Virus record (IMG/VR): IMGVR_UViG_3300009418_000094
Coordinates: 1 to 27,337 of that record
Direction: 5' to 3' (one strand)
Length of the DNA stretch: 27,337 nucleotides
From: a virus
In this document: positions 629 to 24,665 of the stretch, in pieces
How the letters are laid out: every line of letters begins with the position of its first letter
Position numbering within the stretch: the stretch's first letter is position 1
Program-made: the position numbers and the translations under genes
Notes under the pieces: generated by a model
Database searches by the model: none
Seen by the model: only the letters and a program-made list of their open reading frames with translations
What the model was told of the DNA's origin: nothing

Positions 629-1378
629 CTATCTCACCTCTTTCTTTATTAAGATAGGAGAATTAGGTTTATTAATTCTTAAATCTTTTTCTATATAATG
701 ATGCCACTTTGACATACAATTATGGTTTGCGGGAACTAAAACCTTTCTATCATTACCATCAAAGTAAGATATAAAGACACCACCCCCTGTTAATCTAAAC
801 TCTACAACAGAAATTGGTCCATGTTCCATTCCTATATCCATATACATTTTAATTAAAGTTGCTAAGGTAACATTAAAATTTTCTGTAATAATATTATCTT
901 CTTTTAAATGAAACAAAGATATTAGTGGATGATTATAACTCCACTCATTATCGCCTGTTTGAATATAGGTTCTATGAAAAGAAACCTCAGAACCCATTTC
1001 TTTAAACTCTCTTTCAGAAGATCCTGCCCACCATATAGCAGCAGCACTATGGGCTCCTAAAAAGGAACCAGCAACAGCAACAGCCTTATATTCTTTAGTT
1101 ATTCTACATAGTTTGTAGCCCGATAAAGCACTTCCACCGGGAGAATCTATAATAATTCTAATAACAAGTTCTTTTTCTTTAGCTTCTTTACAAAGCTTAT
1201 TAAAATATTTGGGAACAGTATAATCTATATACCCCCAAAAATGCCAGTCGTTAAACTCGTCCATGTTGTTTGTATCTACATAAATAAATGAATCATGATA
1301 CTTTAGTTCTTCATTAACAGAACCATATACACAGGTTGCAAAAGCGATCTCAATAGCTAATAATATTCTTGCCCACAT
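629..1378 (-). CDS. ClpP/SppA-like serine protease with signal peptide
   Basis: A 249-residue protein. ATG at 1378 is chosen because GAGGAG lies 8 bases upstream; an in-frame TTG two codons earlier is less likely. Residues 1-20 look like a signal peptide or membrane anchor: short basic start, then a hydrophobic run LLAIEIAFATCVYG. The rest has the landmarks of the ClpP/crotonase-fold serine proteases: an oxyanion-loop SPGG at 79-82, a candidate nucleophile Ser111 in GAHSAAAIWWAG, and a candidate His135 in EVSFHRTY. The third catalytic residue cannot be placed by eye. Phage ClpP-like proteases usually mature the prohead and sit beside the portal; this one has an export signal and sits between tail fibre and proline-rich genes, so its substrate may be in the periplasm or envelope (inference). 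A catalytically dead family member is also possible. Confidence 0.72.
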   Translation of the reverse strand: MWARILLAIEIAFATCVYGSVNEELKYHDSFIYVDTNNMDEFNDWHFWGYIDYTVPKYFNKLCKEAKEKELVIRIIIDSPGGSALSGYKLCRITKEYKAVAVAGSFLGAHSAAAIWWAGSSEREFKEMGSEVSFHRTYIQTGDNEWSYNHPLISLFHLKEDNIITENFNVTLATLIKMYMDIGMEHGPISVVEFRLTGGGVFISYFDGNDRKVLVPANHNCMSKWHHYIEKDLRINKPNSPILIKKEVR

Positions 1379-1397
1379 AAACAAGTCTCCTCTTTAT

Positions 1398-1556
1398 TTA
1401 ATTGTCTTTTTCTATAGCTCTTATTCGATCCTCATGATCGTGAACAATCTCCTTAATAGAATCAATAGCTGTAGTAATATGTCCCAGCTCTCTTTGAATT
1501 TTCCAAAGCATTCCCATGATGCCCAAACCTACGATAAGTTCTGGTAGTATCTCCAT
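1398..1556 (-). CDS. Small membrane/coiled-coil protein, 52 aa
   Basis: An ATG at 1556, one base beyond the tail fibre stop, opens a 52-codon frame ending in TAA, 20 bases before the protease start. The product begins MEILPELIVGLGIMGMLW, one short hydrophobic segment, then a charged helix ending in HDHEDRIRAIEK, which has heptad character. Single membrane segment plus coiled coil is the layout of XhlA-like, spanin-like or holin-accessory small phage proteins, but the sequence alone does not assign it. It fills the space between its neighbours without overlap, which supports it as a real gene. Confidence 0.65.
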   Translation of the reverse strand: MEILPELIVGLGIMGMLWKIQRELGHITTAIDSIKEIVHDHEDRIRAIEKDN

Positions 1557-1557
1557 A

Positions 1558-2220
1558 CTATGCCGTCCTTATCGCTATCCAGACACAGTTAGTTAAACCG
1601 TGTGTAATAGTAGTATTTGTGGATGATAACTCATCATACTTAATTGTTGGAGTACCATGTAATTCGGTATGGTTTCCATCAGTAGTTTTAGCAGCTAACA
1701 CTTGCCATGTTTCGCTAGTTCCACCACCACTTATGTCAATAGTAGTACTACCATTGGTCTGGATTTTACCAGACGTAGGACTAGTCTCAGTTCCAACAGC
1801 AACAATAGTATTTAAAGGTGTATCAAACGTACCCGTACCGTATGCATTAAACAAAACTTGAAAAAAACCGCTGCCCGATCCTTCAGCAGTAATAGCTTCT
1901 TTAACAGTATTATATTTCCATTCAGAAGAAGAATTTGTATATCTAATCCCACCATTTATATTTGTATTATCTGAATCAGATCTTACAGCAGTTCCATCGG
2001 TAGAATCAAGATCATTCAAAGCATCTACAGTAGATTGTTTAGCAAGCTTATATCCACCAGTTGTTGTACCATCATGTACTCTTGCAGTATAGGTTGAATC
2101 AGTATCAGATCCTGTATCAACCGTAATTTCACCCGCTGCTCCCGCAAAACCAGAAGTACCATCGGTTCCATCATGCTGTTCAGTACTTCCTCTCCTAAAC
2201 TGTACTTGTTTAGCTCCCAT
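1558..2220 (-). CDS. Tail fibre-like protein with Mtd-type N-terminus
   Basis: A 220-residue protein starting at ATG 2220 with GGAGGATAATA just upstream. Residues 1-60 fit the N-terminal module of Mtd-type and other phage receptor-binding proteins: VQFRRGSTEQHDG, then GAAGEITVDT, then a VHDGTTTGGYKLA unit. That module usually forms the trimer base that attaches a fibre or spike to the virion. The remainder is Ser/Thr/Gly-rich and beta-like, with GTGTFDTPLNTIV and a C-terminal NTTITHGLTNCVWIAIRTA. The protein is short for a full receptor-binding fibre, so it may be a short fibre or an adaptor. It is followed by small membrane and protease genes. Confidence 0.72.
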   Translation of the reverse strand: MGAKQVQFRRGSTEQHDGTDGTSGFAGAAGEITVDTGSDTDSTYTARVHDGTTTGGYKLAKQSTVDALNDLDSTDGTAVRSDSDNTNINGGIRYTNSSSEWKYNTVKEAITAEGSGSGFFQVLFNAYGTGTFDTPLNTIVAVGTETSPTSGKIQTNGSTTIDISGGGTSETWQVLAAKTTDGNHTELHGTPTIKYDELSSTNTTITHGLTNCVWIAIRTA

Positions 2221-2222
2221 TA

Positions 2223-2435
2223 TTATCCTCCAAACTTGAATGGGACAGATTCAGACAGCTTCTCTTGAAGTTCTTCCATTATATTACTTGGAAGACTATC
2301 TAAATCTCTCTTGTTGTCATTAATAACACCCCGAACTACCTGATATAGTCCGGGTGTACACTTAATAGGATCATCAAGATCCTCAATTAAACGATTAAAC
2401 AATGATTCTTGTAATGCTTCTACTTTAGTAGTCAT
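2223..2435 (-). CDS. Small helical protein, possible terminase small subunit
   Basis: A 70-residue, mostly helical acidic protein. Its ATG overlaps the TGA of the upstream 66-residue gene (ATGA at 2432-2435), which suggests translational coupling, and no strong ribosome binding site is visible. The central CTPGLYQVVRGVINDN resembles the short ATPxxLxxARxxLKDN helix seen in small terminase/DNA maturase A-like proteins of T7-like phages, which also start with a helix such as LFNRLIEDL. The C-terminal part (EELQEKLSESVPFKFGG) is another helix. The position downstream of tail tube B and the size fit a small terminase, but no large terminase is in the window to support it. It could also be an unrelated small structural protein. 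Confidence 0.5.
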   Translation of the reverse strand: MTTKVEALQESLFNRLIEDLDDPIKCTPGLYQVVRGVINDNKRDLDSLPSNIMEELQEKLSESVPFKFGG

Positions 2436-2641: not shown

Positions 2642-5600
2642 CTATGATTCTGCACTAGATCTTTTTCTAGGTACAAAAGTACCATTCAATTCAATATTAG
2701 TAATGTTTACTGGATCGGGAGTATTACTAGTAATAGTAATAAAACAATCGTTGGCATTTAAAAATACCTTCTGAGTAAACTCACCTTGATATTCTGTAGC
2801 AATAGACGCTTCATAAAAAGGATCTATTCCAAAAATCTTTGATCTTTTTGGTGGACTATTTAATACTGAAGATACTATAGCATTGTCTTTATATACATTA
2901 AGCCTATATTTTCCAGTATTAAAGTGCCTTGTATTCATTGTCAAAACTTTAAAGACACCTTCAATAGTATTGTTATTCTGATCTCTATAAGTTGGAGGCG
3001 ATAGCATTGCTCTCATCCTAAAGTTTTCTCCAATAATAAAATCTTGTTTCAAGAAAGTAGCATTATTAGTAATAATCCCAAAATCATAGACAAAGTAAAG
3101 ATTCTCTCCAATATTATCAAGAGATTCTTCAAGTGTACCACAATCTAATTGGTTGTATTGTACAATATCAGCTACATAATTACTATCATATGCCAGATCA
3201 CTAGGAAGTAATGAAGTGTTTGTATCTGTACTACTATCTGTAATAGAACCATAATCAATAAACTCCTTGGCATAAGGAGGTAGTAGGAAATCATTGATAC
3301 CAATTAATTCTAGTACAGTACGCTTAGGAGAACCATCTCCTTCGATATCACCAACAGTTCCAACAACTTTAACACCCATAGTAGACTCATCAATTTCATA
3401 TCTAGCATATCCAGCACCATAACTATAGTTATAACATTTAAAAACCTGTCCCGGTCGATAGTCACCAACACCTTCCCATTCATTTCCTAACACAACCTCA
3501 AAAATATTGGGATTGTGATAGGGAAGTTGTATAAAGCTACGACCATCGGCTGAAGATAGAGTATCATAATTTGAGTTGTTATCTATAGGACCGGGAAAGC
3601 TCGGTACTGGAGTAGACCCACTACCTGATCCCATATAAATACTAGAATACTGAATAGTAAAAGAGTATCCAACGAAGTTTGATCCCTTTACTGTTCCATC
3701 TGGGTATTTACCAATAGTCATACCCCTCATTTTTTCTACTTCGGGAGGAATATTCAAAGAATCTCTCCATGCTACGTTCTTATCGTTTCCAGACCTTTTA
3801 TGTCTCACAGAATTCGCAAACAACTGAGGACCAGAATACAATCTACCTAGATAATTAGCAGCACCAAACGATTTAAAGGGACCGTTTCTATCTTTCATTG
3901 AATCTTCTAAAACAGCTCTTAAGAAAGTATCCTTAGTTGAAGGAATTTCTCCAAGGATCACATTCTCTGTATAAGTAGTCTGTGATTGAACGGTTTGATA
4001 AGAAGAACCGGGAGACAAAGGTGCTCTTGTATTTTGTTCAGTCTTTCTATCATGAGATATTCTATACTTGTTATGTAAATCATCTATAGTCTTTGATTTT
4101 CTTCCCTTACTAGAGTCTGATTGACCATACAAAGAACTAACCATATCAAACAAAGGATTGTATACACTCGCAGCAGGATTTGCGTCAGCAGAATCTGCCT
4201 TCCCACACTCACAATCACTTGGATCAAATGAAATTTCATTATTAGAAGGAGGATCCTCGGTACAACAGGCAGAAATACTATTACAGGGAGCAGTATTAAT
4301 ACAACCAGCCAAAGCACATATTTCTACACAAGGTCTAATATTCTTAGCAACCATGTGATGATAACTAACTCCTAGAAACTTAATCATAGAATAATACATT
4401 GGTGTATCACCTTCACCATCACCAGTAGTATCTACCAAATACGGTTCACCAGTTGAGGGAATGGTAACTTGACAAGATCCATTGGCAAACCTAAGTAGTT
4501 TAATAGGACCAGCAAAAACCTGAGAAGGACCTTTATTTCTATTAGAAAGCGTAGTACCACAAACTGACAAAGTTGCTCCACAAGCCAACAAACCCTCTCC
4601 TTGGCTAGCCGCATCTTCACAAAAATTCTCAAACGCAGGATCTTTCCAATCTATAATTACCTTGTTTGCCGAATCTGTATCAGTACCGGGGAAAGCATTA
4701 AGAACAATCTTACGATTGCTTGCTGGTATTTCATAAGGAAAATCTATATAATTAGTAAAACAATCATCGTTTGGATAACTAACAAATGGAGGACCAAATC
4801 CAGACGGTATATGAACATCTACCCAACAAGAACCGCTTGCTAGAGAACCTATGCTTCCTACTCTTAAACCACTACAAGTCATTGATAGGCTAGTATTATC
4901 GTCATCTAACCAATGAGAAACCTTTCGATAATATTCAGATGAATCGTCTCCTGTTAAAGAATAAGGAGAACAATCGTCATTACAGAATAATCCTCCTAAA
5001 TAATTAGTATGACAAATACCACCTTGAGGAAGATCTTCTCCTGAGTCTGATATACAATCATCAGTATGACAAGTAGGAACTCCTGCAATAGTTTGACTAC
5101 ACGCAACTGAAGATGTTCCACCAACCAGCATAGAATACACATCTAAAACAGCAAAATGGGGTCCACTATCATAGTCAAAGAAATCCGATGCAGTAGAACA
5201 TTCTAAGTGGGGTCCTCCTTGTAGTGTCCAAGGAAGACAAGCTCGACCATCAGGCCAGCAATAGCTATTGAAACAACAATAAAAACCTTCAGGACAATCT
5301 TCATTATCTCCACATTGAACACCACCTATACAATGTCCATTATGGTCAAGACATCCTAAATCACAGTTACAAGGATTACAAGGGCCGTAGTCACAGCCAC
5401 AATTACTAGGACAAGAACAATCACCATCTTGCATACAAGTTCCATCAGGACAAACACCCTCACACCCACACTTTGGATCGGGACACTTACCCTGTTGATC
5501 CCCACCTGAACAAGGATCTTGTTGATTGTCACACTCATAGCAATCATCTACAGAATCACAACAACAACAATCATCAGGACAACCAAGACTAGCACAAGAT

Positions 5601-8600
5601 TCTAAATAATATGTATCGCTAGGATTCAGACAACAAGGTGAAGGACCAAGAATGTCTCCATTCTTTCCTACACAACAAGGAACTCCTGTTTCTAGAGGCA
5701 AAGAACCATCAGCACATGGACAATTATCACATCCGTTAAACTTTGCACAAGATTCTCCTTGTGCTGCCGAACCATTAGGACAACAAGGGGGTTCTCCACC
5801 ACCATTAGGACAACATTCAACCGTATCAGGATCGCATTCACAACCGCATTGACCAGTACAATTACATGGTTCTGGGCAATCACAAAGACTACAATCTCCG
5901 TTTGGACACTGTACTTCACTACCTCCACAACAACAGGGACCAGATAAGCCATCATCACAACATCCCTCAGGACCAGAAGGACCATCCTCACATACACCAT
6001 AAGGATCGCATTCACTACTGTCACAAGTTGTACACTCAAAGCCAGCAAGATACGTTCCTTCAGGACAACAAGCCGATCCCGGAGTATTGCCATATGGACA
6101 TGTATCAAGTGGTGTAAGCTGGTTTACAAAGAACCTATGCTTCCTTCTATATTCAATTATATTATCAGGATCTGTAATATCCTCAAAAACAATCTCATTC
6201 TCAAACATAATCGTTTCATCACAGGAATTACATAACTCATTATATCTAACTTTTAATTTTTCTTCATTAATCTTATGAAATACAGTTGTTCTATCTAAAA
6301 GAGTTCCATCTGGAGCCAAGCTACCTGAGTTTAGTAATTCATATCCAGTACCTTCTGGATTGTAAAGATATTCTTGTGCTTCTCCACCTTCCCATTCTAT
6401 AAAATTATCATCAGAATTATAAGAAGATATAGACGCATTAAATCTTCTGGATATAGCTCCTTCGTTTACCACTTCCCACTCAAAGAAGTCAGCCTGTCCA
6501 GTATAGATCTCTCCAAGTTCAGTAATAGTAGCATAGGTAACGTATAACTCAGGAATAATAGCAATGTTACCCTCAGGACTAAATAGATAATCGCTACTAA
6601 CAGATCTTCGATCCATTCTTGGTACTGTTTCTGGATCTGTATTCATGTTCATTCGTTGTAGAAATATACTTGTTCGTGGATTTGTACCAAAAGCCGTATA
6701 CCAAGTACGTGCTACCGTAATAAATATTTCATTATCAAATTCTCTTACACTGAGAACCTTAGAATTAGAGGGAAGAGTCCATTTAAAGAAAGCATTCTGA
6801 GCTACTCTATCTCCCTCCCATCTATTTATATATACATACATTGTATTATAGAATACTTTATCAACCATAATAATCATATCTTTATTAGGTAAAGCTTCCA
6901 TTAAAGATATTTCTTTTGGTAGATAACCTTCAGCATGTTTGCTTACTTCAATAGCCTGATTAACTGTAGCAGATGAGCTAGAAAAATATAGGAATAACTT
7001 ATAAGGAGAAAAGAAATATATCTGAGATCCCATAGGAACAGGATCAATCAAAGGTTCAGTAGAATAAAAAGAAGAGGGAGCAAGCTTTGCAGTAAAGGGA
7101 CTGATTTGATTCTCAGAGCCCACCACTTCGTATTGTGTATCTCCTAGAGTATTAACAAAAATATAATCTTTAAATGGAACCATACTAGCTATAGTACTCG
7201 ACTTCTCTGCACCAGCTCGTATATCAATAGGATCGGTATCAACTATATTATCAGGGTCATCAAGCCAAAGATTAAAGTAGTCATTACTTGCAGACGAAAA
7301 TACAGTATCATCAGAAGCAAACCAAAGTCTGTTCCTCCATATACACATATCCGTAATCTTAGCTTTAGCACCATCCTCAAATACCAATGGTCCTTTATTA
7401 CTTATTTTATTTCCGCTTGTTCTTGTTTTCCAAGTAGGATATTTAACAACCCACTTGTTCTCAGCAGTAACATAGTCAAGAATAATAGGCATTTTCTTTT
7501 TATCGAATAAACAATTTCCATCTTGAGATCTAATTCTCTCAAAGAAAGGTTGTTTATCGGTACTAATAGTTCTATAGTATGCAGAAGGAGTAGTACCAAA
7601 GGATTCTCTTGTAAAGAAAACCTTACCATACCCCGCAGTACTTCCTGTCTCTCCTGCAATCTCAGCTAAGACTGTTTCTGCACCATTAAGATTTACATTA
7701 TCATCGCTTGCTGGCGGCAAAGGAATTTTAGAAAAGTTTTGAACTGATTGACCCAGAACATCATCAGTTCTGATGTCTTTATCAACATTAATCTGAGAAG
7801 TATGAGCAGAACCTGATTCACTAACATCTAATGCAGCAGTAAAACCGGGTCCAGTTGTTGAATCCTCAACACCTTCTACAGCAGTAACGACCATAGAGTA
7901 TTTATATTCTGTAGTAGACTTAAAAACTATCTTCGCTTCGGCAGTTGTTCCTTCTATCTCAATAGACACAGGCTCAAACGGAAAATTATTACCTCCGGGT
8001 GGATTTAACAAAAGATCTTTAAGCAAAGAACGAACAATATCATTGGTTGTTCGAGGATAGTTAACACTGATAACATCTGGATCTGCGGCTGTATCTGTAA
8101 AAGTTATAGCTTCAAGAGACGCACTAAAACTACCTGTCTTTAGTTCGTCTGGAGTTGATTCAATATCTGAAAGAGTCTCGTTTACCCAATCCCAAGTAAC
8201 AATTAAAGATCTAAAGTTATTAATATTACCGATAGTTCCTACATTAATAGTTGTCTTAAACTCAGCAATCTCCCCACCCTCAGCATATCTGGAGGTTAGG
8301 TAGGTAATATCTTCTCCCGGAAATCCTTGTTCATATCCTGCTTCTACCTGATTATTGAGAATAAACAAAGAAGAACCAAAGGGAATTGTCTTTAATCTTT
8401 CACTTGTAGAGAAAGCTTCTTTGGCATAGGTAACATAGTCATAAAAATCTGAAGCATTTTCAACAGTAGTATCTACAGTTTCTTCTGTAACAATACCATT
8501 ATCATCTATTTTAAATACAGAAATAAGATTTTCAAAACTAGTAGAAGAAGAGTTAATAGCAATAAGAAACCTATTGGAACCATCTAAATCCAGCCAATCA

Positions 8601-8845
8601 AAGTGTACGTCATCGTTTGCACTAAGCAAAGGAATGTTCAAAGCTCCGTCTCTATCACTATCCTCATCAACAGTACCATCAATAAACTTGAATCCATTTC
8701 TTTTCTCTAAAGATTTTTCTATAGTAACAATACAGTTATCTAGTTCTTGTGCCTCGTTTAGTTGCCGTTTGCTTGGAGGAGTTCTCCCAACTCCACCACT
8801 AAGAGAGTTAATAGGTATTACAACTTTACTACTTCTTTTAGCCAT
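2642..8845 (-). CDS. Giant tail tubular protein B (T7 gp12-like) with Cys-rich insert
   Basis: Tail nozzle homologue of about 2067 residues; T7 gp12 has about 800. ATG at 8845 has GAGG 8 bases upstream and overlaps the tail tube A stop by 8 bases; an open frame continues 13 codons upstream but lacks a better start. Family landmarks: N-terminal GGVGRTPPSKRQLNEAQELDN (residues about 14-35), NRLWFASDDTVFSSASNDYF (about 502-521), PMGSQIYFF (about 603), and the end NITNIELNGTFVPR matching the gp12 C-terminus. Between them, residues about 913-1207 hold about 62 Cys in CPNG, CPDG, CC and CxC units. A further segment to about residue 1550 has scattered Cys. The likely role is the nozzle ring under tail tube A; the insert would project from it (inference). 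Confidence 0.85.
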   Translation of the reverse strand: MAKRSSKVVIPINSLSGGVGRTPPSKRQLNEAQELDNCIVTIEKSLEKRNGFKFIDGTVDEDSDRDGALNIPLLSANDDVHFDWLDLDGSNRFLIAINSSSTSFENLISVFKIDDNGIVTEETVDTTVENASDFYDYVTYAKEAFSTSERLKTIPFGSSLFILNNQVEAGYEQGFPGEDITYLTSRYAEGGEIAEFKTTINVGTIGNINNFRSLIVTWDWVNETLSDIESTPDELKTGSFSASLEAITFTDTAADPDVISVNYPRTTNDIVRSLLKDLLLNPPGGNNFPFEPVSIEIEGTTAEAKIVFKSTTEYKYSMVVTAVEGVEDSTTGPGFTAALDVSESGSAHTSQINVDKDIRTDDVLGQSVQNFSKIPLPPASDDNVNLNGAETVLAEIAGETGSTAGYGKVFFTRESFGTTPSAYYRTISTDKQPFFERIRSQDGNCLFDKKKMPIILDYVTAENKWVVKYPTWKTRTSGNKISNKGPLVFEDGAKAKITDMCIWRNRLWFASDDTVFSSASNDYFNLWLDDPDNIVDTDPIDIRAGAEKSSTIASMVPFKDYIFVNTLGDTQYEVVGSENQISPFTAKLAPSSFYSTEPLIDPVPMGSQIYFFSPYKLFLYFSSSSATVNQAIEVSKHAEGYLPKEISLMEALPNKDMIIMVDKVFYNTMYVYINRWEGDRVAQNAFFKWTLPSNSKVLSVREFDNEIFITVARTWYTAFGTNPRTSIFLQRMNMNTDPETVPRMDRRSVSSDYLFSPEGNIAIIPELYVTYATITELGEIYTGQADFFEWEVVNEGAISRRFNASISSYNSDDNFIEWEGGEAQEYLYNPEGTGYELLNSGSLAPDGTLLDRTTVFHKINEEKLKVRYNELCNSCDETIMFENEIVFEDITDPDNIIEYRRKHRFFVNQLTPLDTCPYGNTPGSACCPEGTYLAGFECTTCDSSECDPYGVCEDGPSGPEGCCDDGLSGPCCCGGSEVQCPNGDCSLCDCPEPCNCTGQCGCECDPDTVECCPNGGGEPPCCPNGSAAQGESCAKFNGCDNCPCADGSLPLETGVPCCVGKNGDILGPSPCCLNPSDTYYLESCASLGCPDDCCCCDSVDDCYECDNQQDPCSGGDQQGKCPDPKCGCEGVCPDGTCMQDGDCSCPSNCGCDYGPCNPCNCDLGCLDHNGHCIGGVQCGDNEDCPEGFYCCFNSYCWPDGRACLPWTLQGGPHLECSTASDFFDYDSGPHFAVLDVYSMLVGGTSSVACSQTIAGVPTCHTDDCISDSGEDLPQGGICHTNYLGGLFCNDDCSPYSLTGDDSSEYYRKVSHWLDDDNTSLSMTCSGLRVGSIGSLASGSCWVDVHIPSGFGPPFVSYPNDDCFTNYIDFPYEIPASNRKIVLNAFPGTDTDSANKVIIDWKDPAFENFCEDAASQGEGLLACGATLSVCGTTLSNRNKGPSQVFAGPIKLLRFANGSCQVTIPSTGEPYLVDTTGDGEGDTPMYYSMIKFLGVSYHHMVAKNIRPCVEICALAGCINTAPCNSISACCTEDPPSNNEISFDPSDCECGKADSADANPAASVYNPLFDMVSSLYGQSDSSKGRKSKTIDDLHNKYRISHDRKTEQNTRAPLSPGSSYQTVQSQTTYTENVILGEIPSTKDTFLRAVLEDSMKDRNGPFKSFGAANYLGRLYSGPQLFANSVRHKRSGNDKNVAWRDSLNIPPEVEKMRGMTIGKYPDGTVKGSNFVGYSFTIQYSSIYMGSGSGSTPVPSFPGPIDNNSNYDTLSSADGRSFIQLPYHNPNIFEVVLGNEWEGVGDYRPGQVFKCYNYSYGAGYARYEIDESTMGVKVVGTVGDIEGDGSPKRTVLELIGINDFLLPPYAKEFIDYGSITDSSTDTNTSLLPSDLAYDSNYVADIVQYNQLDCGTLEESLDNIGENLYFVYDFGIITNNATFLKQDFIIGENFRMRAMLSPPTYRDQNNNTIEGVFKVLTMNTRHFNTGKYRLNVYKDNAIVSSVLNSPPKRSKIFGIDPFYEASIATEYQGEFTQKVFLNANDCFITITSNTPDPVNITNIELNGTFVPRKRSSAES
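5225..6108 (-). other. Cysteine-rich domain inside tail tube B
   Basis: This is the segment of the tail tube B gene coding for the disulfide- or metal-type domain. It runs from a CPYGNTPGSACC unit to a CWPDGRACLPW unit. Roughly one residue in five is Cys, with Gly, Pro, Asp and Asn making up much of the rest. Recurrent units are CPNG, CPDG or CPEG followed by CC or CxC; one run is CCCC. The last unit, EDCPEGFYCCFNSYC, recalls eukaryotic WAP/granulin or EGF-type small disulfide modules, but that is resemblance of spacing only. The frame is uninterrupted across the segment, so it is not a sequencing artefact of frameshifts. Confidence 0.85.
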
Positions 8846-11800
8846 TAGGTAGTCCTCTCCATTTTCTTCTAGGCCAAGCATCATTAGATCCTACAGTCCT
8901 ATTTCTGTGAACAGCTTTATAAACATTAGGATCACCAGTAACTAAAATATTTCTTCCACGACTGGTAATATCTTTAGACTTAGACAGCCATTTGGATTCT
9001 GTCTCTCGTCTTAATAGAATCTGATCTACATTCAAGTCTCCAACAACTATTCTTTGATATTCTCGAACAGCACTATCTATTATAGAACTTTGCATAGAAG
9101 TTTCAACTTCTTCCCAAGGAATGAAATAAATAACTTCAACATTTCTACCATCAGTAACTTTAGTATCATCCCATTCAAGAGTATCGTTTGTAAGATTCTT
9201 TAGATATATCTTTCCATCTTGTTGTCTAAAATAGTCTGCACCATTTATTAGAATATCATCACTATCATATTCAAAGTCGCCTTCTAAATGACCATTTGCA
9301 TATCTTGCAGATAAGATTGTTTTATTAACAGGACCTTCGGTAAGGTCAAATATCTCTGCGTTTTCTTGTAAGACTATCTTCTTTGATATAGCATTAACAG
9401 GAAGGGAATATGTTGCACTTGTTCCTGCGGTATCGGTATAGCTAATGGAAACAGTATCTCCATCTGAATACTTATGTCCAGAAGACAGAATAGATACCGA
9501 AGCTGGCTGAACATTTTTAACTTTTGTAAGATTGAAGATAGACGAAACATAACTATTAGAAATAACAGTACTATCTCCATCAACAGTCAGTTGCATACCT
9601 CTTACTAAGGCACTTGAAGTGTCATCGGCTTGGTCATCAACAGCATAAACTACACCACTTGTAATAGTATTTGTTCCTCCTACTGTACCTCTTACATTAA
9701 ATACCGAAGCTACGGCATCATGAATAACACCTGAACCACTAACTACCTCACAAACAGCAAACTCGGTTACATTAGAAGTAACATCTGGATAATTAGTATT
9801 ATCATCTACCATTTCATTACTATATCCCCAACCATAACTTGTAAAGGCATCTGATCCGACAATATCAGTCTTATCAGTATACTTCAAAGTTAATCCAGAT
9901 ATAGATCCGCTTGTAACTTCTCCTGCTCTAAATACAACCGAAGATGTACTGGTTGAAGGAGACTTGATCGTGAGAACATCTCCTACAACATACCCACTAC
10001 CGGGATTCATAATAGTAAAGTCAGTAATAACACCATTTAATACATCACTGATATATAGACTTGCTCTAGCATCAGTACCACCAGTAAAGGCGGTTGCTAC
10101 AGTACCAGAAATACCATCATTAAATGAACTACTTACAGTAACTGTTGTATTTCCTGCCGTTCCTTTTATCATTTGAGTAATAGTTAATTCATTAGTAGCT
10201 ATTGCTACATTAAATCTAGAACCACCATGTCCATTAGAACCCTCCATAGCTGTTTTTAAGTTAGCAGCTGCTTCAGCAGCAAGAGGGGAAGTATCTCTAT
10301 TAACAGCAATATTACCGTTGGTAAGAACAGTACCATTAGATGAAGTACTATACTCATAAGTCTTATCTGTACCATCAGTAGAAATAAATTGTATGGTTTC
10401 TCCAAGATCAATCGCTCCAGCAAATACAAATGCGGTCAAACTAGCAGCTGCACCTGCTCCAGTATCATTAATCTCATATTCTTGGGTCGTAGATGCAGTA
10501 TAGTCTGCACCATTATGAACAAGAGTAGCAGCATCAACCACACCAGTATATAGATTCTGATCATCAGCTGAATTATAGGTAGAGGCTGCATCTTCTGTAT
10601 AAAAGTAGAACGATGGAGCAAAGTATGACTCTGCACTAAGAGCACCTGACGATGGATAACTAACATCGGCTACTGTCTTCTGATTTGTACTGGTTACTTC
10701 TCTCTTCATCTTTATTAGAGGACCAGTAATACCTCTCTTGCTGGCTATAGCACTAAGAACAGAACCAAGACCCGCATCTGGAAACCCTAACTTAATATCC
10801 AAAGCTACAGATTCTACATCATCAGAAACTCTCTTAAGTTTCAAAGAACTAGCCCTTCCAACCTCAACCTCATATCCTCTACCGCTATCGACAATAGCTT
10901 CAAGATCTACATTTCCGCTTGCAGACTCATTTCCTTGAATAATACAATTCTCTACATCTGTTCCAGTATCCCAAACAAGATAATATAATTGTCTACCTGT
11001 ACTTCCAGAAGCAAAATCAAAGCCAGCAGTACCTCCAGTTGCTCCGTATATATTATTCATACCAAGCATATGAAGACAACCAACTGATCCTGTATCATCG
11101 TCTGTAGTACCACCATGCCAAAGAGCTTCTCCTCTATAGTTAGAAGATGCTGGCATAGTTTTAATTTTCTGAATTCCAAGAGTAGAAACAAGAGATCTTC
11201 CAGACGGATGATATGTATTTGAGGCAGGGATTGTTATACTTACTTTCTTCTGTTTAAGAGCAACGCTTGTATCTGCTGGAACACTAGAGCTATCTGCAAA
11301 AACAAATGTAATGACATCTCCTACTTCCCATCCATATCCTCCATCTACCAACTGAACATCAATGAGTTTGTCTGATGATTCTCTAAATAATGCTTTACAG
11401 TTAACACCCCCAGAACTCTTAGTAGTAGAGGTTAGAATTTGTTCTTGAAATCCAGTAGCCGTGTATGCCGCTGTTCCAATAGTAGTTAGCTCTCGTAGTA
11501 AATAATGATTAAACGTAATAGGGTTTAATACTTTATTATTAACATATCCTTTAATTTGACAGGTATATGATTCTCCATCGTCTCCTGTATAGGAGGTGGG
11601 ATGAGTATAAAGTTTAGATGTTCCATCCAACCCTGCTATTCTACTATCAAACGTATACCACGTTGCCGCAGTAAAGTTAGATGAGTTAAGTTCACCAGCA
11701 TCTTCAAGACACAAACTTGCATTACTATCCGATTCAACATCGGGAGGAAGCACATTATTTTTAATAGTTGTAGTTACACTAGATCTACTAGATCCACTAA

Positions 11801-12929
11801 GATCTTGGTAGCTGCCTTGATAAGGAGGGAAAAGGACATAGGTTCCTGCTGTGTTTAGTTTTCCTCTATCCTTAAAGTCACCTAATGTTTTGACAACACC
11901 ATCAGCCAGTGTTATATTAGCCCTAGCTCTTTTACCAGTACCAGTACCACTTAAGTATTGAATCTCTTGACTCTTGGTTTTACTAGAACTATAGTTATAT
12001 CCCGGATAGGATTTGGTAGTCGATGTTGATAGGTTCCAGAAGTTGTTTGTTGCATTGGTTACAGACGTACTAGTATCCAGAAGAACACTAGAAGAAGTCT
12101 TTTGTGGAGCAGTAGATCCAGAACCATCTTCAAAATATCGAAGAGCACCAGTACTTGCAGTTACGGTACATACGACACCACCAGCATTATATTCTTCAGC
12201 TCCCCAACAACTAGTATTACTAGTAGTATTAGCAGCACTTACTGAATCCCAGATCCATCTAGTTGTTTCTAGATCTCCAATGAGAGGATCTTCAAAGGCA
12301 TGAGTACCGCCATGATTACCATCAGCACCAAAGCCAGAAGCTACTGGTTTAATTCTTACCTCATCCCCATCAGCAAATCCAGACCCATTATAGTTAGGAG
12401 ATACGGTAAAGCTTTCACAGACACCCATAAGGTAGGAAACATCAACAGTTACACTAGTATCCGTACCATCTATAGTTCTTAACTTAACAGCATCGGATGT
12501 CGTGGTAGTCCCGAACATATTAGAAATAGCATCATGTCCTGAGTCGCCTTCTTCTATTTGTTTAATCCAATTCTTACCATAAGAAGCCAATGTTAATCCA
12601 TCAGATGGAATAGTATTGGCTGTAAAAACAACACTAATAGATAATCCAGTATCAAACGTAAACGTCTTCAGTGTACCAGAATCCAACAGCACAGTATTTG
12701 CAGTAGTAGTAGTGGGTAGACCCATGTTTACAACAGAACCAAGAAAATACTTCTTGATATCTTTGTTGTGTAGTGTACCTCTTAACTGATAGTCTCTAAC
12801 AGTTTCATTGAAAACATATTTAGCTATCGTTAGATCAACAGATTGGTCATCATCAAGAGATGTTACTATTTGCTCCCCACTATTGAGGAGCATACGATTA
12901 ATAGCTTCTAACTTAGAAATCATTCCCAT
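8838..12929 (-). CDS. Giant tail tubular protein A (T7 gp11-like) with large internal insert
   Basis: A 1363-residue protein at the gene 11 position; T7 gp11 has 196. ATG at 12929 follows AAGGAG by 7 bases. The first 70 residues (LEAINRMLLNSGEQIVTSL, then a helix ending in VRDYQLRG) match the gatekeeper N-terminus. The last 180 or so (IPWEEVETSMQSSIIDSAVREYQRIVVGD, then RRETESKWLSKSKD) match its C-terminal helices. In between are over 1000 Ser/Thr/Gly-rich beta-like residues. These hold five or six units of the type GSGYVVGDVLTI (around residues 182, 530, 684, 807, 976, 1150). A segment at about 832-953 with TDGTDKTYEY, TAGNTTVTV and FTGGTD looks like a repeat module of phage surface proteins. 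The likely role is the ring joining portal to nozzle, with the insert on its outside (inference). Confidence 0.82.
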   Translation of the reverse strand: MGMISKLEAINRMLLNSGEQIVTSLDDDQSVDLTIAKYVFNETVRDYQLRGTLHNKDIKKYFLGSVVNMGLPTTTTANTVLLDSGTLKTFTFDTGLSISVVFTANTIPSDGLTLASYGKNWIKQIEEGDSGHDAISNMFGTTTTSDAVKLRTIDGTDTSVTVDVSYLMGVCESFTVSPNYNGSGFADGDEVRIKPVASGFGADGNHGGTHAFEDPLIGDLETTRWIWDSVSAANTTSNTSCWGAEEYNAGGVVCTVTASTGALRYFEDGSGSTAPQKTSSSVLLDTSTSVTNATNNFWNLSTSTTKSYPGYNYSSSKTKSQEIQYLSGTGTGKRARANITLADGVVKTLGDFKDRGKLNTAGTYVLFPPYQGSYQDLSGSSRSSVTTTIKNNVLPPDVESDSNASLCLEDAGELNSSNFTAATWYTFDSRIAGLDGTSKLYTHPTSYTGDDGESYTCQIKGYVNNKVLNPITFNHYLLRELTTIGTAAYTATGFQEQILTSTTKSSGGVNCKALFRESSDKLIDVQLVDGGYGWEVGDVITFVFADSSSVPADTSVALKQKKVSITIPASNTYHPSGRSLVSTLGIQKIKTMPASSNYRGEALWHGGTTDDDTGSVGCLHMLGMNNIYGATGGTAGFDFASGSTGRQLYYLVWDTGTDVENCIIQGNESASGNVDLEAIVDSGRGYEVEVGRASSLKLKRVSDDVESVALDIKLGFPDAGLGSVLSAIASKRGITGPLIKMKREVTSTNQKTVADVSYPSSGALSAESYFAPSFYFYTEDAASTYNSADDQNLYTGVVDAATLVHNGADYTASTTQEYEINDTGAGAAASLTAFVFAGAIDLGETIQFISTDGTDKTYEYSTSSNGTVLTNGNIAVNRDTSPLAAEAAANLKTAMEGSNGHGGSRFNVAIATNELTITQMIKGTAGNTTVTVSSSFNDGISGTVATAFTGGTDARASLYISDVLNGVITDFTIMNPGSGYVVGDVLTIKSPSTSTSSVVFRAGEVTSGSISGLTLKYTDKTDIVGSDAFTSYGWGYSNEMVDDNTNYPDVTSNVTEFAVCEVVSGSGVIHDAVASVFNVRGTVGGTNTITSGVVYAVDDQADDTSSALVRGMQLTVDGDSTVISNSYVSSIFNLTKVKNVQPASVSILSSGHKYSDGDTVSISYTDTAGTSATYSLPVNAISKKIVLQENAEIFDLTEGPVNKTILSARYANGHLEGDFEYDSDDILINGADYFRQQDGKIYLKNLTNDTLEWDDTKVTDGRNVEVIYFIPWEEVETSMQSSIIDSAVREYQRIVVGDLNVDQILLRRETESKWLSKSKDITSRGRNILVTGDPNVYKAVHRNRTVGSNDAWPRRKWRGLPNG

Positions 12930-12944
12930 TATAGTGCTCCTTAT

Positions 12945-12985
12945 AAAAAACTAAAAACCCACTCTCCCCTTTCGAGAAGAGAGGG
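12945..12985 (-). terminator. Rho-independent terminator after the major capsid gene
   Basis: Read on the minus strand, CC-CTCTC-TTCT pairs with AGGG-GAGAG-(T bulge)-GG around a CGAA loop. That gives 11 base pairs, two of them G-T, followed directly by G, five T, AG and six T. It lies about 40 bases after the capsid stop and just before the tail tube A ribosome binding site. This matches the position of T-phi downstream of T7 gene 10 and would lower expression of tail genes relative to capsid. Confidence 0.8.
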
Positions 12986-13026
12986 CGAATGTCAATATAA
13001 TATTATAAATAAAAATAATATAATTA

Positions 13027-14553
13027 TTATGACTTAACAAATGCTCCCGGTATTGCACCAAGACCAGTAGGAATATTATTTGATAGTGCAGAATCAAGTG
13101 CAGGTTTACCATTGAATAGTGCATTTCCATACAGGTCAATAAGAATGGAACCTTTAGCTGCATCTACAGAACCAGAAGCGTTAATTTCTGCTAACGTAAT
13201 ATCATCAGTATCAGTTTCGTTCATTTCTAAAGCACCTCCTGCGATGTCATCCACCTCAGCAGTTACAGAACCTTTGTACTTGATACCATCAAGGACAACA
13301 CCTGTGCATTCTGGTTTAAGAATACCAGTACCACCCATCATAGAAGCAACAGTAAATACTGTATTTCTACGAACATCATCTACTGTATCAACTTTAAGAC
13401 CTTGTAGTCTAATTGATGCAATAGCTGAAGCTGTAAACATAAGTGCTTTAATACCAGCTTCAAGACCTTGAACATTATACTTATCTTCACCAATAACTGG
13501 TACAAGATTAGTGTCAGGTGATGCATCAGGATTACTTGTGGCAACAGTTGCATAGTTTGCAACAGGTAGGTGATTGCTCTTAACAATAGTAACACCCATG
13601 TAAACTAGAGTATCACCTAGTCCAAACATACCTTGAGATAAACCAGCACCTAAGCCACCCATGTCTTCAGTTGCACCGAATAAAGGTCTACGACCGCCAT
13701 CATCAAGATCGCCGGTTGCACGAGCAACACCAAGAGCACGGATATCTTGGAAAGTTCTTGGTTCAACTACTAAGAAGTATGGTTCTTCAGGAATGTCAGC
13801 TTCTTGTTGACGTACTAAGAAGTCTTCCACATATTGAAGAAGTTCTAAAGCAGCTGTAGTTCTATTTGCAGCAGATGCAGTGCCACTTCCTAAGTATTGG
13901 AAGTTATCACGAGTTCTTGCAAATCCAAACTGGTGTCTAGGTTGCATACCTCGTGTACTAGCTATACCTGCGGTAACAGTTCCCCACAAAGTGGAATCGT
14001 TGCCCGGAGCACCAACTTCGTCAAAAGATAAACAAACTGTATCTATAGCAGTCTTTTCAAGCTCAATACTGTTGCATATAGCACGAGATACGAAAGACGC
14101 AAGTTGTTTATCACGAGTAGAAGCAAGACGCAAACCAGCTTGACGTGCAAGCTCTGCTCTGTATTCCCACTGTGATACCATTTGGTCAATGTTGTCTAGC
14201 TCGAAGTGAGCAGCCATTGGACGCTTGTCCAAAGTAACAACAAATGAATCTGAAATTGGTGAGTTACCGTCTTTATCGTTACCACCACCAAGCTCTTCAC
14301 CCGCAGCCCAGACAGCGTTAAGACCTACTGTACCAGTGATTGGGAACTCCATTTGCATACCACTAGCAATTTGTCTGCTAGTAACTAAATTTTCAAACAT
14401 ATTATATTCGTCATACGCATTGATGACTTCACCCGACCATATCGGGAGCCACAAACGACCCGGAGCACCCGGAGTTGTAGCAGTATGGAGCGAAGTATCT
14501 GCTCGATACCCGATATCTCCATGAAGTAGAATTTGATCTCCACTAAATGCCAT
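13027..14553 (-). CDS. Major capsid protein (T7 gp10-like position)
   Basis: A 508-residue protein; ATG at 14553 follows AAAGGAGATTTATC and the gene ends in tandem TAA TAA. The N-terminal part (LFLPIWSGEV-type sequence, read here as LWLPIWSGEVINAYDEYNMF) and the following TSRQIASGMQMEFPITGTVG, AAHFELDNID and RQAGLRLASTRDK segments are typical of podovirus HK97-fold capsid proteins. It sits directly after the scaffold and before tail tube A. It is about 150 residues longer than T7 gp10A; the extra C-terminal part from about residue 415 (GVVLDGIKYKGSVTAEV onward) may be an added surface domain. Codon use looks more regular and GC-richer than in the tail genes, as expected for the most highly expressed gene. 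The terminator just downstream fits that. Confidence 0.88.
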   Translation of the reverse strand: MAFSGDQILLHGDIGYRADTSLHTATTPGAPGRLWLPIWSGEVINAYDEYNMFENLVTSRQIASGMQMEFPITGTVGLNAVWAAGEELGGGNDKDGNSPISDSFVVTLDKRPMAAHFELDNIDQMVSQWEYRAELARQAGLRLASTRDKQLASFVSRAICNSIELEKTAIDTVCLSFDEVGAPGNDSTLWGTVTAGIASTRGMQPRHQFGFARTRDNFQYLGSGTASAANRTTAALELLQYVEDFLVRQQEADIPEEPYFLVVEPRTFQDIRALGVARATGDLDDGGRRPLFGATEDMGGLGAGLSQGMFGLGDTLVYMGVTIVKSNHLPVANYATVATSNPDASPDTNLVPVIGEDKYNVQGLEAGIKALMFTASAIASIRLQGLKVDTVDDVRRNTVFTVASMMGGTGILKPECTGVVLDGIKYKGSVTAEVDDIAGGALEMNETDTDDITLAEINASGSVDAAKGSILIDLYGNALFNGKPALDSALSNNIPTGLGAIPGAFVKS

Positions 14554-14697
14554 GATAAATCTCCTTTATCATATATTATGAATTTAAAATAAAAATACAA
14601 TATACGACAGCTACCTTAGAATTATTCTTTCGAGTTCTTTGGTAAAAGGAAACCATTCAATATCCCCTAAGAATATTTATTGTTTCAAACGCATTAA
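14554..14697 (-). promoter_or_regulatory. Capsid gene leader, possible promoter
   Basis: This is the longest noncoding gap in the window (144 bases), between the scaffold stop and the capsid start. It ends with the strong AAAGGAG site of the capsid gene. A weak sigma70-like pair can be read on the minus strand, TTGTAT (14595-14600) and TAATAT (14573-14578) with 16 bases between, but AT-rich DNA gives such matches by chance. A 26-codon frame starting ATGGTTTCC near 14656 also fits in the gap and is probably spurious. No T7-type promoter is visible on the minus strand. Confidence 0.25.
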
Positions 14698-15678
14698 TTA
14701 AAAGTGACCCTGTATAATTCCTTGAGAAGCATTAACTCTTTGTTGTACAGCTTCTCGGAATCGAGGATCAACTTTGTATCTTGGGTTTCTCATATCTGCC
14801 ATCATCTCTTGTTGACTTGCATACCCTACAACTTGTTTAGACATAGCTTCACCCGCTTGTCTCCTGTTTGGAGTAGGTGTAGGCTCTTGTCGCCTTATAC
14901 TAGAAGCAGCCTGATTGTAGCGTTGTTGCAACCCCAGAAGAGTTGTAGCATAACTAGGTGAACGAAGCTGTGCATTAATAGCATCCCGTTCGCCACCTTC
15001 GAGATTATCTCTCGCCCAACCCAAAATATTATTGAGGTTTTCTTCTCCCCCAACATGACCAGCAGCAGTACGGAAAGCTTCCTTATTAGCTGCTTGTCTT
15101 CCATAAACAAAATGATCAATCACTTCATCAGTAACACCCATCTTTGTTCTGATTTGATCTCTAGACTCAGGAGTAAGTTCTCCATTAGCCTCGATTTCTT
15201 CTCCCCATTTATTCCACTCGTTCACAGTAACCTGATCTAAGGCACTTTCTTTCGTAGTGGGTTCAGGAGGAGTATCAATCTGAAGCTGCTCCCCTTTTTG
15301 AGGATCAGCAATAGGTGCTTCAACGGCAGGTTGTCCTGCGTTGGGATCATAGTTTGGATTTGTAATTCCATTTTCATTATATTGAGTCTTAAGCTCAGAA
15401 ATTTCTTGACGAGCTTGAGTATAATTCTTTTGGGCTTCAAACAAACTATCAAACCAACCATCTGCATTCTTAAAGTTTGCAGGGATTTCCTTCCCTTGAT
15501 CTCTGACATGACTTAGGAACGCCTGTTTCTCATGAGTATATTGTGCAATATCTTCTTGAGCAATGTTTTCAGGAATTCCACCTTGAGATAGTTCCGGTGT
15601 AGATTGTTCCGTAGCCAATTGTTCCGTTGGAGTTGGCTCTGGAGTCTGTGGAGTCTCATTTACTTGTTGATCAGTCAT
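14698..15678 (-). CDS. Scaffolding (capsid assembly) protein, T7 gp9-like
   Basis: A 326-residue acidic protein with ATG at 15678 after AGGAGAAATAG. The first 60 residues are disordered, rich in Thr, Pro, Glu and Gln (TPEPTPTEQLATEQSTPE). The middle is helical with ADGWFDSLFEAQKNYTQAR and a predicted helical block at about residues 148-245. The C-terminus ends in MRNPRYKVDPRFREAVQQRV, the conserved basic helix by which podovirus scaffolds bind capsid protein. The position directly before the capsid gene agrees. The protein directs procapsid assembly and leaves the shell before packaging. Confidence 0.85.
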   Translation of the reverse strand: MTDQQVNETPQTPEPTPTEQLATEQSTPELSQGGIPENIAQEDIAQYTHEKQAFLSHVRDQGKEIPANFKNADGWFDSLFEAQKNYTQARQEISELKTQYNENGITNPNYDPNAGQPAVEAPIADPQKGEQLQIDTPPEPTTKESALDQVTVNEWNKWGEEIEANGELTPESRDQIRTKMGVTDEVIDHFVYGRQAANKEAFRTAAGHVGGEENLNNILGWARDNLEGGERDAINAQLRSPSYATTLLGLQQRYNQAASSIRRQEPTPTPNRRQAGEAMSKQVVGYASQQEMMADMRNPRYKVDPRFREAVQQRVNASQGIIQGHF

Positions 15679-15692
15679 CTATTTCTCCTATG

Positions 15693-16127
15693 TTATTTGG
15701 CAGATGCGCTGCCAAAATAAAATCCTATAATAGCAAGCAACGCTTGCCTGTTTTCTTCTGCAAAGAGATAACCATTAATCTCTTTAAAAACTGTTTCTTC
15801 TTTGCCACCAAAAAGACCAAAGAAAAATTCTTGTGTCTTTTGGGTAACCTCTACAACGATAGGTATGTTAAAAATTGGAGCAATAAAAGGAGCATACATA
15901 CACGCAAACAAAACAGAAAGGACAATGATCCTTCTTGTTATTCTGCCAGCATCAATGCCGACCCTTTTAACAGCACTATTTGCAGTATCATCTGAAGCTT
16001 TCTGAGCCTGAAGCATAAGCTTCATTCTCTCTTGCTCATTCTTTCTTTTCTCTGCTTGTTGTTTAAAAATAAACCCAGCAAGAGAACCACCTAGCATTGT
16101 AACTACATCGGGTGTTAAAAAATCCAT
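15693..16127 (-). CDS. Holin-like membrane protein
   Basis: A 144-residue protein with ATG at 16127 after AAGGAGATTATGT. It has a weak hydrophobic segment near the N-terminus (VVTMLGGSLAGFIF), then a charged helix (QQAEKRKNEQERMKLMLQAQK), a strong membrane segment at about 64-91 (RIIVLSVLFACMYAPFIAPIF) and a last one at about 129-140 (LLAIIGFYFGSASAK). The arrangement, and the closing IIGFYFGS, resembles the three-segment holin family of gene transfer agents and marine phages. It would form or seed holes in the inner membrane for lysis. No endolysin is next to it, so a structural membrane role cannot be excluded. Confidence 0.6.
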   Translation of the reverse strand: MDFLTPDVVTMLGGSLAGFIFKQQAEKRKNEQERMKLMLQAQKASDDTANSAVKRVGIDAGRITRRIIVLSVLFACMYAPFIAPIFNIPIVVEVTQKTQEFFFGLFGGKEETVFKEINGYLFAEENRQALLAIIGFYFGSASAK

Positions 16128-16139
16128 ACATAATCTCCT

Positions 16140-16352
16140 TTATTGTCCTTCATCCAAATCAGGTTTATTAGGAAGGTTATCTCTTGGATTATGAGTATCA
16201 GAAGAAGTATATATCTTTGTATTAACAGGTACTTGAAGATCTTCATCTACTTTATTCACATAATAGCCCTCAGCAGTTATGCATATTAACGCAGAAAAGA
16301 TACTTCCAAAGAAAAACCCCGCTAGAAAAGAAACAATACTTCTCTTAGTCAT
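16140..16352 (-). CDS. Small single-span membrane protein, 70 aa
   Basis: ATG at 16352 lies in an ATGA overlap with the preceding 37-residue gene, and GAGGGGG is 7 bases upstream. Residues 1-4 are basic (MTKR) and residues 5-30 are a hydrophobic Phe- and Gly-rich segment (SIVSFLAGFFFGSIFSALIC). A polar tail with Asp and Pro (YTSSDTHNPRDNLPNKPD) follows. The Cys is not in a good lipobox. Such a short anchored protein next to a holin-like gene could be part of the lysis or spanin set, but no family is recognised. Confidence 0.6.
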   Translation of the reverse strand: MTKRSIVSFLAGFFFGSIFSALICITAEGYYVNKVDEDLQVPVNTKIYTSSDTHNPRDNLPNKPDLDEGQ

Positions 16353-16462
16353 TTAACAGCCCCCTCTAATATTTTTTTAGTACTTGTAGAAATAATCTTA
16401 GTAACCTTTTTAAATAAAGGCTCAGATTTTTTCTTATTTTTTTTACACTTTGTACAACCCAT
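16349..16462 (-). CDS. Small basic protein with N-terminal CxxC, 37 aa
   Basis: ATG at 16462, three bases after the stop of the 35-residue gene, with AAGGA 10 bases upstream; the TGA overlaps the next ATG. The product starts MGCTKCKKNKKKSEP, a CxxC pair in a lysine-rich stretch, followed by a helix (LFKKVTKIISTSTKKILEGAVK). It may bind metal or nucleic acid. The tight fit between neighbours and the coupling overlap support it as a real gene; the function is unknown. Confidence 0.6.
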   Translation of the reverse strand: MGCTKCKKNKKKSEPLFKKVTKIISTSTKKILEGAVK

Positions 16463-16464
16463 GT

Positions 16465-16572
16465 TTAATAATCCTTCTTTTTAATCTTCTTTCCTGTTTT
16501 CTTGGCATGTTTTTTAGCAGCAGCCTTACCTTTTTTAGAATACGGAAACTTCTTTTTACCTAGAGTTGGCAT
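16465..16572 (-). CDS. Very basic conserved small phage protein, 35 aa
   Basis: ATG at 16572 follows AAGGGGGTTCGTT, and the frame closes with TAA at 16465. The product starts MPTLGKKKFPYSKKGKAAAK and continues KHAKKTGKKIKKKDY: about half the residues are Lys. The opening pattern (MPxxGKKKFPYxKKGKxAAK) is one I know from tiny proteins next to portal genes in many marine podoviruses. The charge suggests DNA binding or association with the portal. It lies 16 bases after the portal stop. Confidence 0.72.
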   Translation of the reverse strand: MPTLGKKKFPYSKKGKAAAKKHAKKTGKKIKKKDY

Positions 16573-16587
16573 AACGAACCCCCTTTC

Positions 16588-18180: not shown

Positions 18181-18184
18181 TTAA

Positions 18185-18499
18185 TTACTCCGGTCTTGGA
18201 ATTTGAACAACATCAGGTCGATCTCTATAGATAGACTCAGCTGCTCTTGTTCCAACATCTTCTTGTGCTTCGATCTCTTCTTGAGTTCTTGTCTCTTCTG
18301 TTTCGATCTCAGCTTTCTTACGTTCTTCAGCTTCTTTTGCAGCTTTTTCTCTAGCTAATCTGGAAGATTCTCGTTCTGCTTCCTTAGCTTCAGCTCTTGC
18401 CATCTGTTCTTGTGTTTGCGATTGCATTCTTGCAAACTGTCTTTGCTGCATCTGCTCCATTTGAGCATAGTCAGGTCCTCCTCCTCCTTTTCCACCCAT
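18185..18499 (-). CDS. Coiled-coil protein upstream of portal, 104 aa
   Basis: ATG at 18499 overlaps the previous stop by one base (TAATG). The N-terminus is glycine-rich (MGGKGGGGPDYAQM). A Gln/Met segment (QMEQMQQRQFARMQSQTQEQ) follows, then a long highly charged helix rich in Ala, Glu, Lys and Arg (residues about 35-85). The end is RDRPDVVQIPRPE. Proteins opening with MGGKGGGG directly before the portal are common in marine podoviruses, but no function is established that I know of. The spacing to the portal start is 4 bases, so the two are probably co-translated. Confidence 0.7.
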   Translation of the reverse strand: MGGKGGGGPDYAQMEQMQQRQFARMQSQTQEQMARAEAKEAERESSRLAREKAAKEAEERKKAEIETEETRTQEEIEAQEDVGTRAAESIYRDRPDVVQIPRPE

Positions 18500-18840: not shown

Positions 18841-19043
18841 TTATTTTTTCTCCTACGAATCTTTTTCTTTGGAGCCTTGCCACAAGTCCAAGCTTCGTTC
18901 TCAGGAGTACTAGGATCGTCAGATATGTAAGTACCCTTCTTTGATCTGGTTCGTTTGTTACCAGAGTATCCCAATCTTTCTTCTAGTCTATCAAAGACTA
19001 AATCTACCAAATTCCCAAAGGGAGTTCCATCAATAAAACTCAT
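18837..19043 (-). CDS. Hypothetical basic protein, 68 aa
   Basis: The likely start is ATG at 19043, because AGGAG sits 8 bases upstream of it; an in-frame ATG two codons earlier overlaps the reductase stop but is too close to that site. The N-terminus MSFIDGTPFGNLVDLVFDRL is a short motif followed by an amphipathic helix; the middle has SGNKRTRSKKGTYISDDPST; the end is a lysine/arginine block (APKKKIRRRKNK). It may bind DNA. No family is recognised. It is the first gene after the reductase and may begin the structural cluster. Confidence 0.6.
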   Translation of the reverse strand: MSFIDGTPFGNLVDLVFDRLEERLGYSGNKRTRSKKGTYISDDPSTPENEAWTCGKAPKKKIRRRKNK

Positions 19044-19045
19044 TA

Positions 19046-24590: not shown

Positions 24591-24665
24591 TATCATCTCC
24601 TTCGTCCTGATCTTGAAGACTACTCCAATACTTATTATACCACACAACTTCTTTCCAGTCAATAC

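Follow-up and report, generated by a model that had tools for sequence, protein, structure and literature searches.

The DNA analyzed here, referred to below as the window, is the 27,337 nt record IMGVR_UViG_3300009418_000094, whose gene content is T7-like. On the minus strand it carries a replication set (primase/helicase, DNA polymerase, exonuclease, and ribonucleotide reductase) and a virion set consisting of portal (16588–18180), scaffold (14698–15678), major capsid protein (MCP, 13027–14553), tube, nozzle, small terminase, and an Mtd_N tail protein. A DUF4406 (nucleoside 2-deoxyribosyltransferase-like) protein is encoded at 26725–27081 (E = 1.4e-22). The T7 gp18-type small terminase, or DNA packaging protein (2223–2435, minus strand; PF11123, 2.9e-07), is followed by the Mtd_N-type tail protein (1558–2220, minus strand; PF18454, 5.1e-07; phrog_9648), by p52, a 52-residue protein with a hydrophobic N-terminus and a weak match to phrog_5225 (1398–1556, minus strand), and by the open reading frame of interest at 629–1378, also on the minus strand, which encodes a ClpP-like protein of 249 residues. 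Its ATG is at 1378, and a ribosome-binding site, GAGGAG, can be read from the sequence 8 nt before it (1387–1392, minus strand).

A second metagenomic locus, L001, is 99.95% identical to the window across 6,279 bases and extends beyond the window edge, where it encodes a proline-rich protein, the proteins p58, p132, and p336, the large terminase, and proteins that are probably internal to the virion. The proline-rich protein (L001:5653–6474) contains tandem SSSPSLPPFT units and is present in the window lineage and absent from its sister. That sister phage (L093/G001, 64 kb) carries a relative of the ClpP-like protein in the equivalent place. The large terminase of the window lineage is about 35–40% identical to the best isolates listed, and seven isolate records among the large-terminase matches belong to the Autographiviridae; the Autographiviridae-related neighbors suggest that the lineage may be of marine origin.

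The reading frame at 629–1378, which the first-pass annotation had assigned to this position, is indeed there. Near-unchanged copies occur in two further metagenomes (L001 and L002; protein 99.6% identical), and the sister gene has AAGGAG 7 nt ahead of its ATG. The window and sister proteins are 59% identical over 237 residues, such that 41% of positions differ, and NG86 analysis of the 237 codons gives dN of 0.32 and dS of 1.13, which is the signature of purifying selection. Together with the recurrence in further metagenome contigs, this rules out a chance reading frame: the ORF is a true gene under selection.

The best matches of the protein in four libraries are of the ClpP type, and all are weak. 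The match to PF00574 has E = 0.016 and 15.6 bits, under the Pfam cut-off of 20.2; the best PHROGs family is phrog_5410 (0.0018), the best NCBIfam model is NF045542, ClpP-related head maturation (E = 0.0055), and the PDB search returns ClpP chains at E 0.16. For the sister protein, the E-values are 0.0076 with NfeD1b_N and 0.27 with CLP_protease (11.5 bits), and neither protein reaches the curated score for S14 (PF00574). In hhalign, an alignment of the window and sister proteins against nine ClpP-like proteins scores 47.5 (probability 89) over residues 42–145; none of 200 column shuffles scores above 23.2, and 12 other window proteins reach no more than 26.6. Without the Vequintavirus sequence the score is 37.6. 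The profile of the nine ClpP-like proteins, when run against the ORFs of the fetched viral loci, retrieves the window-lineage protein (4e-5) and its sister counterpart (0.0045). The core therefore resembles the ClpP/crotonase (ClpP-fold) superfamily at a level above the controls, and the library matches and the comparison with shuffles uphold the ClpP-like identity first proposed, at the level of the fold family. On these profile comparisons, the protein is predicted to be a very divergent ClpP-fold serine hydrolase.

One competing profile match was considered. A SusD homologue was returned by the profile search with E = 0.0031, a better value than the 0.16 of the ClpP chains, which are absent from the SusD profile-search list. 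We dropped this match as chance because its gaps run through the PGG loop. AlphaFold modeling gave a pLDDT of 32 with the two-row alignment, and 47.7 overall when six rows were added to the window protein, with block means of 65–78 for residues 51–130. Five of the six added rows are viral ClpP-like sequences truncated after the His, and since ClpP-like rows were fed in, the ClpP structure matches of this model are biased and carry low weight.

The landmarks of a ClpP active site are located where they had been described. SPGG occupies residues 79–82 (1133–1144, minus strand), the candidate nucleophile Ser111, within GAHSA, lies 32 residues past the SPGG serine (1046–1048, minus strand), and the candidate general base His135, which hhalign aligns with the ClpP histidine, lies 24 residues past Ser111 (974–976, minus strand). 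The numbering in E. coli ClpP is identical, with SPGG starting at 79 and the serine at 111. The 32-residue step is also present in PA5oct, RaK2, a Vibrio phage, Ayreon, and LL12, and is longer in two Mycobacterium phage proteins. The sister keeps TPGG, Ser111, and His135; the loss of Ser111 and His135 in close homologues, which the first-pass annotation had named as evidence against its proposal, is thus absent. Indeed, both residues are invariant when the window and sister proteins are aligned with five further ClpP-like proteins from viruses, and the S14 pair of catalytic Ser and His is found at ClpP spacing. An earlier alignment with longer rows placed His157, which is also conserved, opposite the ClpP histidine instead of His135; we prefer His135 because of the 24-residue spacing.

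The context of the serine is unusual, in that GAHSA replaces the usual A-A/C-S. The window has PGG-x25-GAHSA at 1044–1141, and a scan of the viral collection with this pattern found 42 stretches, consisting of 41 new loci (L206–L246) and L002, against a chance level of 32 matches obtained with a pattern four N longer. Within the viral collection, an in-frame match in a ClpP-like protein is seen only in the window lineage and the sister. No residue could be assigned as the catalytic Asp, as hhalign homology is unreliable and the models are of low confidence beyond about residue 145. A hand alignment would put a conserved Gly200 at the position of the ClpP Asp, and the conserved Asp181 could stand in as the third catalytic residue. 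Taken on sequence, Ser111 and His135 are likely to be catalytically active.

Residues 1–19 (1322–1378, minus strand) form a signal-like hydrophobic segment that may end in a signal peptidase I site, VYG↓S. Residues 5–14 have a mean hydropathy of 2.58 (2.82 in the sister), a value that none of 62 cytosolic E. coli proteins reaches with the 10-residue window. The same is true with 12- and 14-residue windows (0/62), and 1/62 reaches the value of the segment with an 8-residue window. Among exported or anchored E. coli controls, 15/25 lie at or below 2.58, which places the segment near the middle of that group. The 87 controls were hand-picked by name and general knowledge from 136 features, with integral membrane proteins among those excluded. 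The segment combines a positive n-region with a hydrophobic core, as in Sec-exported or anchored proteins, the atypical element being a conserved Glu10 inside the core; a charged core residue is found in 2/25 of the exported or anchored controls. The end of the segment reads ATCVYG↓S and resembles SATVYG at the end of the E. coli BamA signal, after which we take BamA to be cleaved. The signal-like segment that had been described is accordingly upheld by its hydrophobicity and c-region, and departs from the expected form in the glutamate within its core. Read by eye, the residues leading up to the conserved Cys16 (FAT↓C) deviate from the lipobox consensus of bacterial lipoproteins, [LVI][ASTVI][GAS]C.

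Signal peptides usually drift. In this protein the N-terminal segment is conserved more than the catalytic core: the window and sister share 18/20 of their first residues, followed by 10/25. By NG86, codons 1–20 have dN of 0.068 and dS of 0.84, and codons 21–45 have dN of 0.49. The low dN at a dS of 0.84 indicates that it is the protein rather than the DNA that is conserved, and the jump in dN after codon 20 indicates that the conserved stretch stops close to residue 20, at the would-be VYG↓S site. By contrast, p70, a small hydrophobic protein also encoded by this phage, keeps 9/20 of its first residues in the sister. These observations fit an N-terminal segment that has a job of its own, as a signal or membrane anchor, rather than a neutral tail.

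The ClpP-like gene lies after the Mtd_N tail protein at 1558–2220, so its description as following a tail gene stands, and, in the order seen in L001, before terL. Its assignment to a lysis region is not supported. In the sister, the holin-like and LysM-lysozyme genes lie together on the far side of terL and of two genes for probable internal virion proteins, about 9 kb from the ClpP-like gene. A 5,199-residue ORF adjoins the lysis genes of the sister (G001 10413–26012; L098, L099). Adjacency to portal and MCP, as expected for a head maturation protease, is likewise not seen, with the gene at 629–1378, the MCP starting at 13027, and the portal at 16588. The premise that phage ClpP-like proteases are encoded near the portal is also too general, since Mycobacterium phages and Vequintavirus have ClpP-like genes among non-structural neighbors.

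To define the distribution of the gene, the wider clade was scanned by its terminase (80 loci). The gene is present in 3/82 loci with both terminase genes, 10 duplicate loci having been excluded from this count; the three (L001, L002, and L093) represent two lineages. The gap between the small and large terminase genes is <0.5 kb in 62/79 loci that are devoid of the gene, and in three loci with 2.4–3.4 kb between them (L127, L160, and L167) the interval was covered by homology search alone. In related phages, runs of tiny, highly basic proteins occur near the terminase genes, upstream of terL in L011, L015, L018, L019, L022, and L023. No ClpP-like homologue is found in 26 further clade records (0/26; 30–69 kb, selected for length), with no Clp match at E 0.01. 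Viral alignment scans for relatives return the sister and one Vequintavirus-like contig. In phage isolates there are no close homologues at E 0.1; at E 10, 100 records are returned, and the 40 listed, mostly ClpP of the Vequintavirus type, all cover one and the same 75-residue stretch at E 5–7. Plasmids hold no homologue at E 10, and two scans of cellular genomes found no relative. The ClpP-like gene is an accessory gene, so far confined to one phage lineage. The window proteins scanned include no Clp ATPase, and neither the window protein nor the sister matches a PADLOC anti-phage defense family (0 for both).

The gene is accompanied by p132 and p336, whose sister counterparts, p123 and p284, are directly next to it. 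Sister p123 matches phrog_9522 (E = 6e-5) and p284 matches phrog_10356 (E = 3e-9), both tail/virion families, and on this basis p132 and p336 look like virion proteins. The tail nozzle protein (2642–8884, minus strand; PF25675, 4.4e-58) is 2080 residues long and carries a Cys-rich insertion of ∼1,190 residues (roughly 760–1950). The whole protein contains 92 Cys, 84 of them within residues 901–1600, and the sister nozzle, of 2,042 residues, has a similar Cys-rich insertion. Relatives devoid of the ClpP-like gene lack the insertion in 22/22 full-length nozzles and have no nozzle ORF above 12 Cys. This comparison began with 36 rows, of which the 22 closed ORFs from loci devoid of the gene were used; eight were open-ended, L157, L162, and L164 were excluded as meaningless short ORFs, and L001, L093, and L102 represent the ClpP-bearing lineages. 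Because the two lineages are sisters, the co-occurrence of gene and insertion counts as one evolutionary event, and it does no more than hint at a link between the protease and the enlarged tail. The tube protein (window 8838–12929, 1363 residues) is far above the usual size of T7 gp11 and contains two Tube stretches; its residues 970–1009 match Gp18_dom_I (tail sheath) just below the cut-off.

ClpP is known as a cytoplasmic, ATPase-fed machine, and its phage versions are mostly known as head maturation enzymes. The window protein shares with ClpP (S14, PF00574) a core at ∼42–145, the SPGG loop, and the Ser +32 and His +24 spacing, but it differs in the lack of an identifiable Asp, in a C-terminal half that has no detectable match, in its signal-like N-terminus, and in the GAHSA sequence around the serine. 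The Vequintavirus (rV5-like) ClpP-like proteins, such as that of Escherichia phage LL12, are 35% identical over residues 68–142 with no indel between SPGG and Ser, a match that at E 5 in the full phage search is near chance. Their genes, like that in the window, are not head genes as judged by their neighbors; the proteins, however, have no hydrophobic N-terminus and are about 100 residues longer. Head maturation proteases (NF045542, phrog_94, phrog_1684) show weak profile similarity to the window protein and are portal-adjacent in two examples, whereas the window gene is not. SppA/SohB (S49) have in common with the protein the SPGG motif and an envelope location, the latter being proposed for the window protein, but hhalign with a four-row S49 profile scores 21.7 versus a maximum of 22.0 in 100 shuffles, and E. 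coli SppA and SohB have no His at the place of His135. The NfeD1b N-terminal protease domain (PF25145) is matched by the sister at E = 0.0076 (16.3 bits versus a 40-bit cut-off), with no match to the window protein. PMC5332604 mentions ClpP from the genomes of marine viruses, linking it with Fe-S proteins. In titles and abstract openings, among the matches listed, an exported phage ClpP is not evident. We consider the view that this combination of features is an unusual one to be a fair judgment.

The reading we tentatively favor, at a confidence that stops short of an even chance, is that the protein is a ClpP-type hydrolase, exported or tethered to the membrane, whose target late in infection is an envelope protein. 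The starting point is observed, namely that the T7-like phage has, among its structural genes, an accessory gene whose start site is good. Its expression would be late, and the hydropathy of the N-terminal segment suggests that the product would be exported to the inner membrane or periplasm. There, Ser111 and His135 would carry out hydrolysis together with a divergent third residue, and no Clp ATPase would be needed. The substrate may be an envelope protein or peptide, either of the host (a receptor, or a target in exclusion) or related to the tail, although this is a guess; the benefit would probably be felt at the envelope stage, as a change in receptor, a block to second infection, or easier release. 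A more specific version, in which a self-exported, ATPase-free periplasmic ClpP-type protease was gained with the Cys-rich nozzle as one envelope-interaction module, is conceivable and, in our estimate, unlikely.

Two other readings deserve some weight. The location of the gene among tail and virion genes, in the sister directly before p123/p284, and the restriction of the Cys-rich nozzle insertion to the two ClpP-bearing lineages are what one would expect of a virion or tail maturation protease that trims the enlarged nozzle, the enlarged tube, or p132/p336. The nozzle co-occurrence counts only once, however, the lineages being sisters, and phage tail parts assemble in the cytoplasm, to which a conserved signal-like N-terminus is ill-matched; we regard tail maturation as doubtful, although it is the strongest of the alternatives. 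A ClpP fold that serves without catalysis, as a scaffold or structural component tethered to the membrane, would account for the GAHSA in place of A-A/C-S and for the canonical Asp that could not be placed, its position falling on the conserved Gly200 if the hand alignment is right. Conservation of Ser111, His135, and the PGG loop despite 41% divergence argues against such a pseudo-protease, which we judge to be rather improbable.

The remaining explanations fare worse. A lysis protein might be suspected given that the gene follows p52, with its hydrophobic N-terminus, in the interval corresponding to that occupied in T7 by the holin and spanin genes; but p52, common in the terminase clade, is kept by many relatives that have no ClpP-like gene, and the holin-like and LysM-lysozyme pair of the sister is about 9 kb off, such that a role in lysis seems very unlikely. 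The ClpP fold might also bring to mind a protein that acts in the cytoplasm as a partner of the host Clp system or as its decoy, with which the hydrophobic N-terminus is at odds, and we give this little credence. A prohead (head maturation) protease whose gene has moved away from the portal region would agree with the best NCBIfam match, the ClpP-related head maturation model at E = 0.0055. Its absence from 79/82 terminase-bearing loci, its distance from portal and MCP, and its signal-like N-terminus speak against this, and processing is not known for T7-type capsids; this origin is hardly credible.

If the favored reading of an envelope-acting, exported or tethered hydrolase is true, the ClpP fold would be at work in the envelope, beyond its cytoplasmic and head-maturation roles, and T7-like phages would have a new route to receptor handling, superinfection, or tail maturation.
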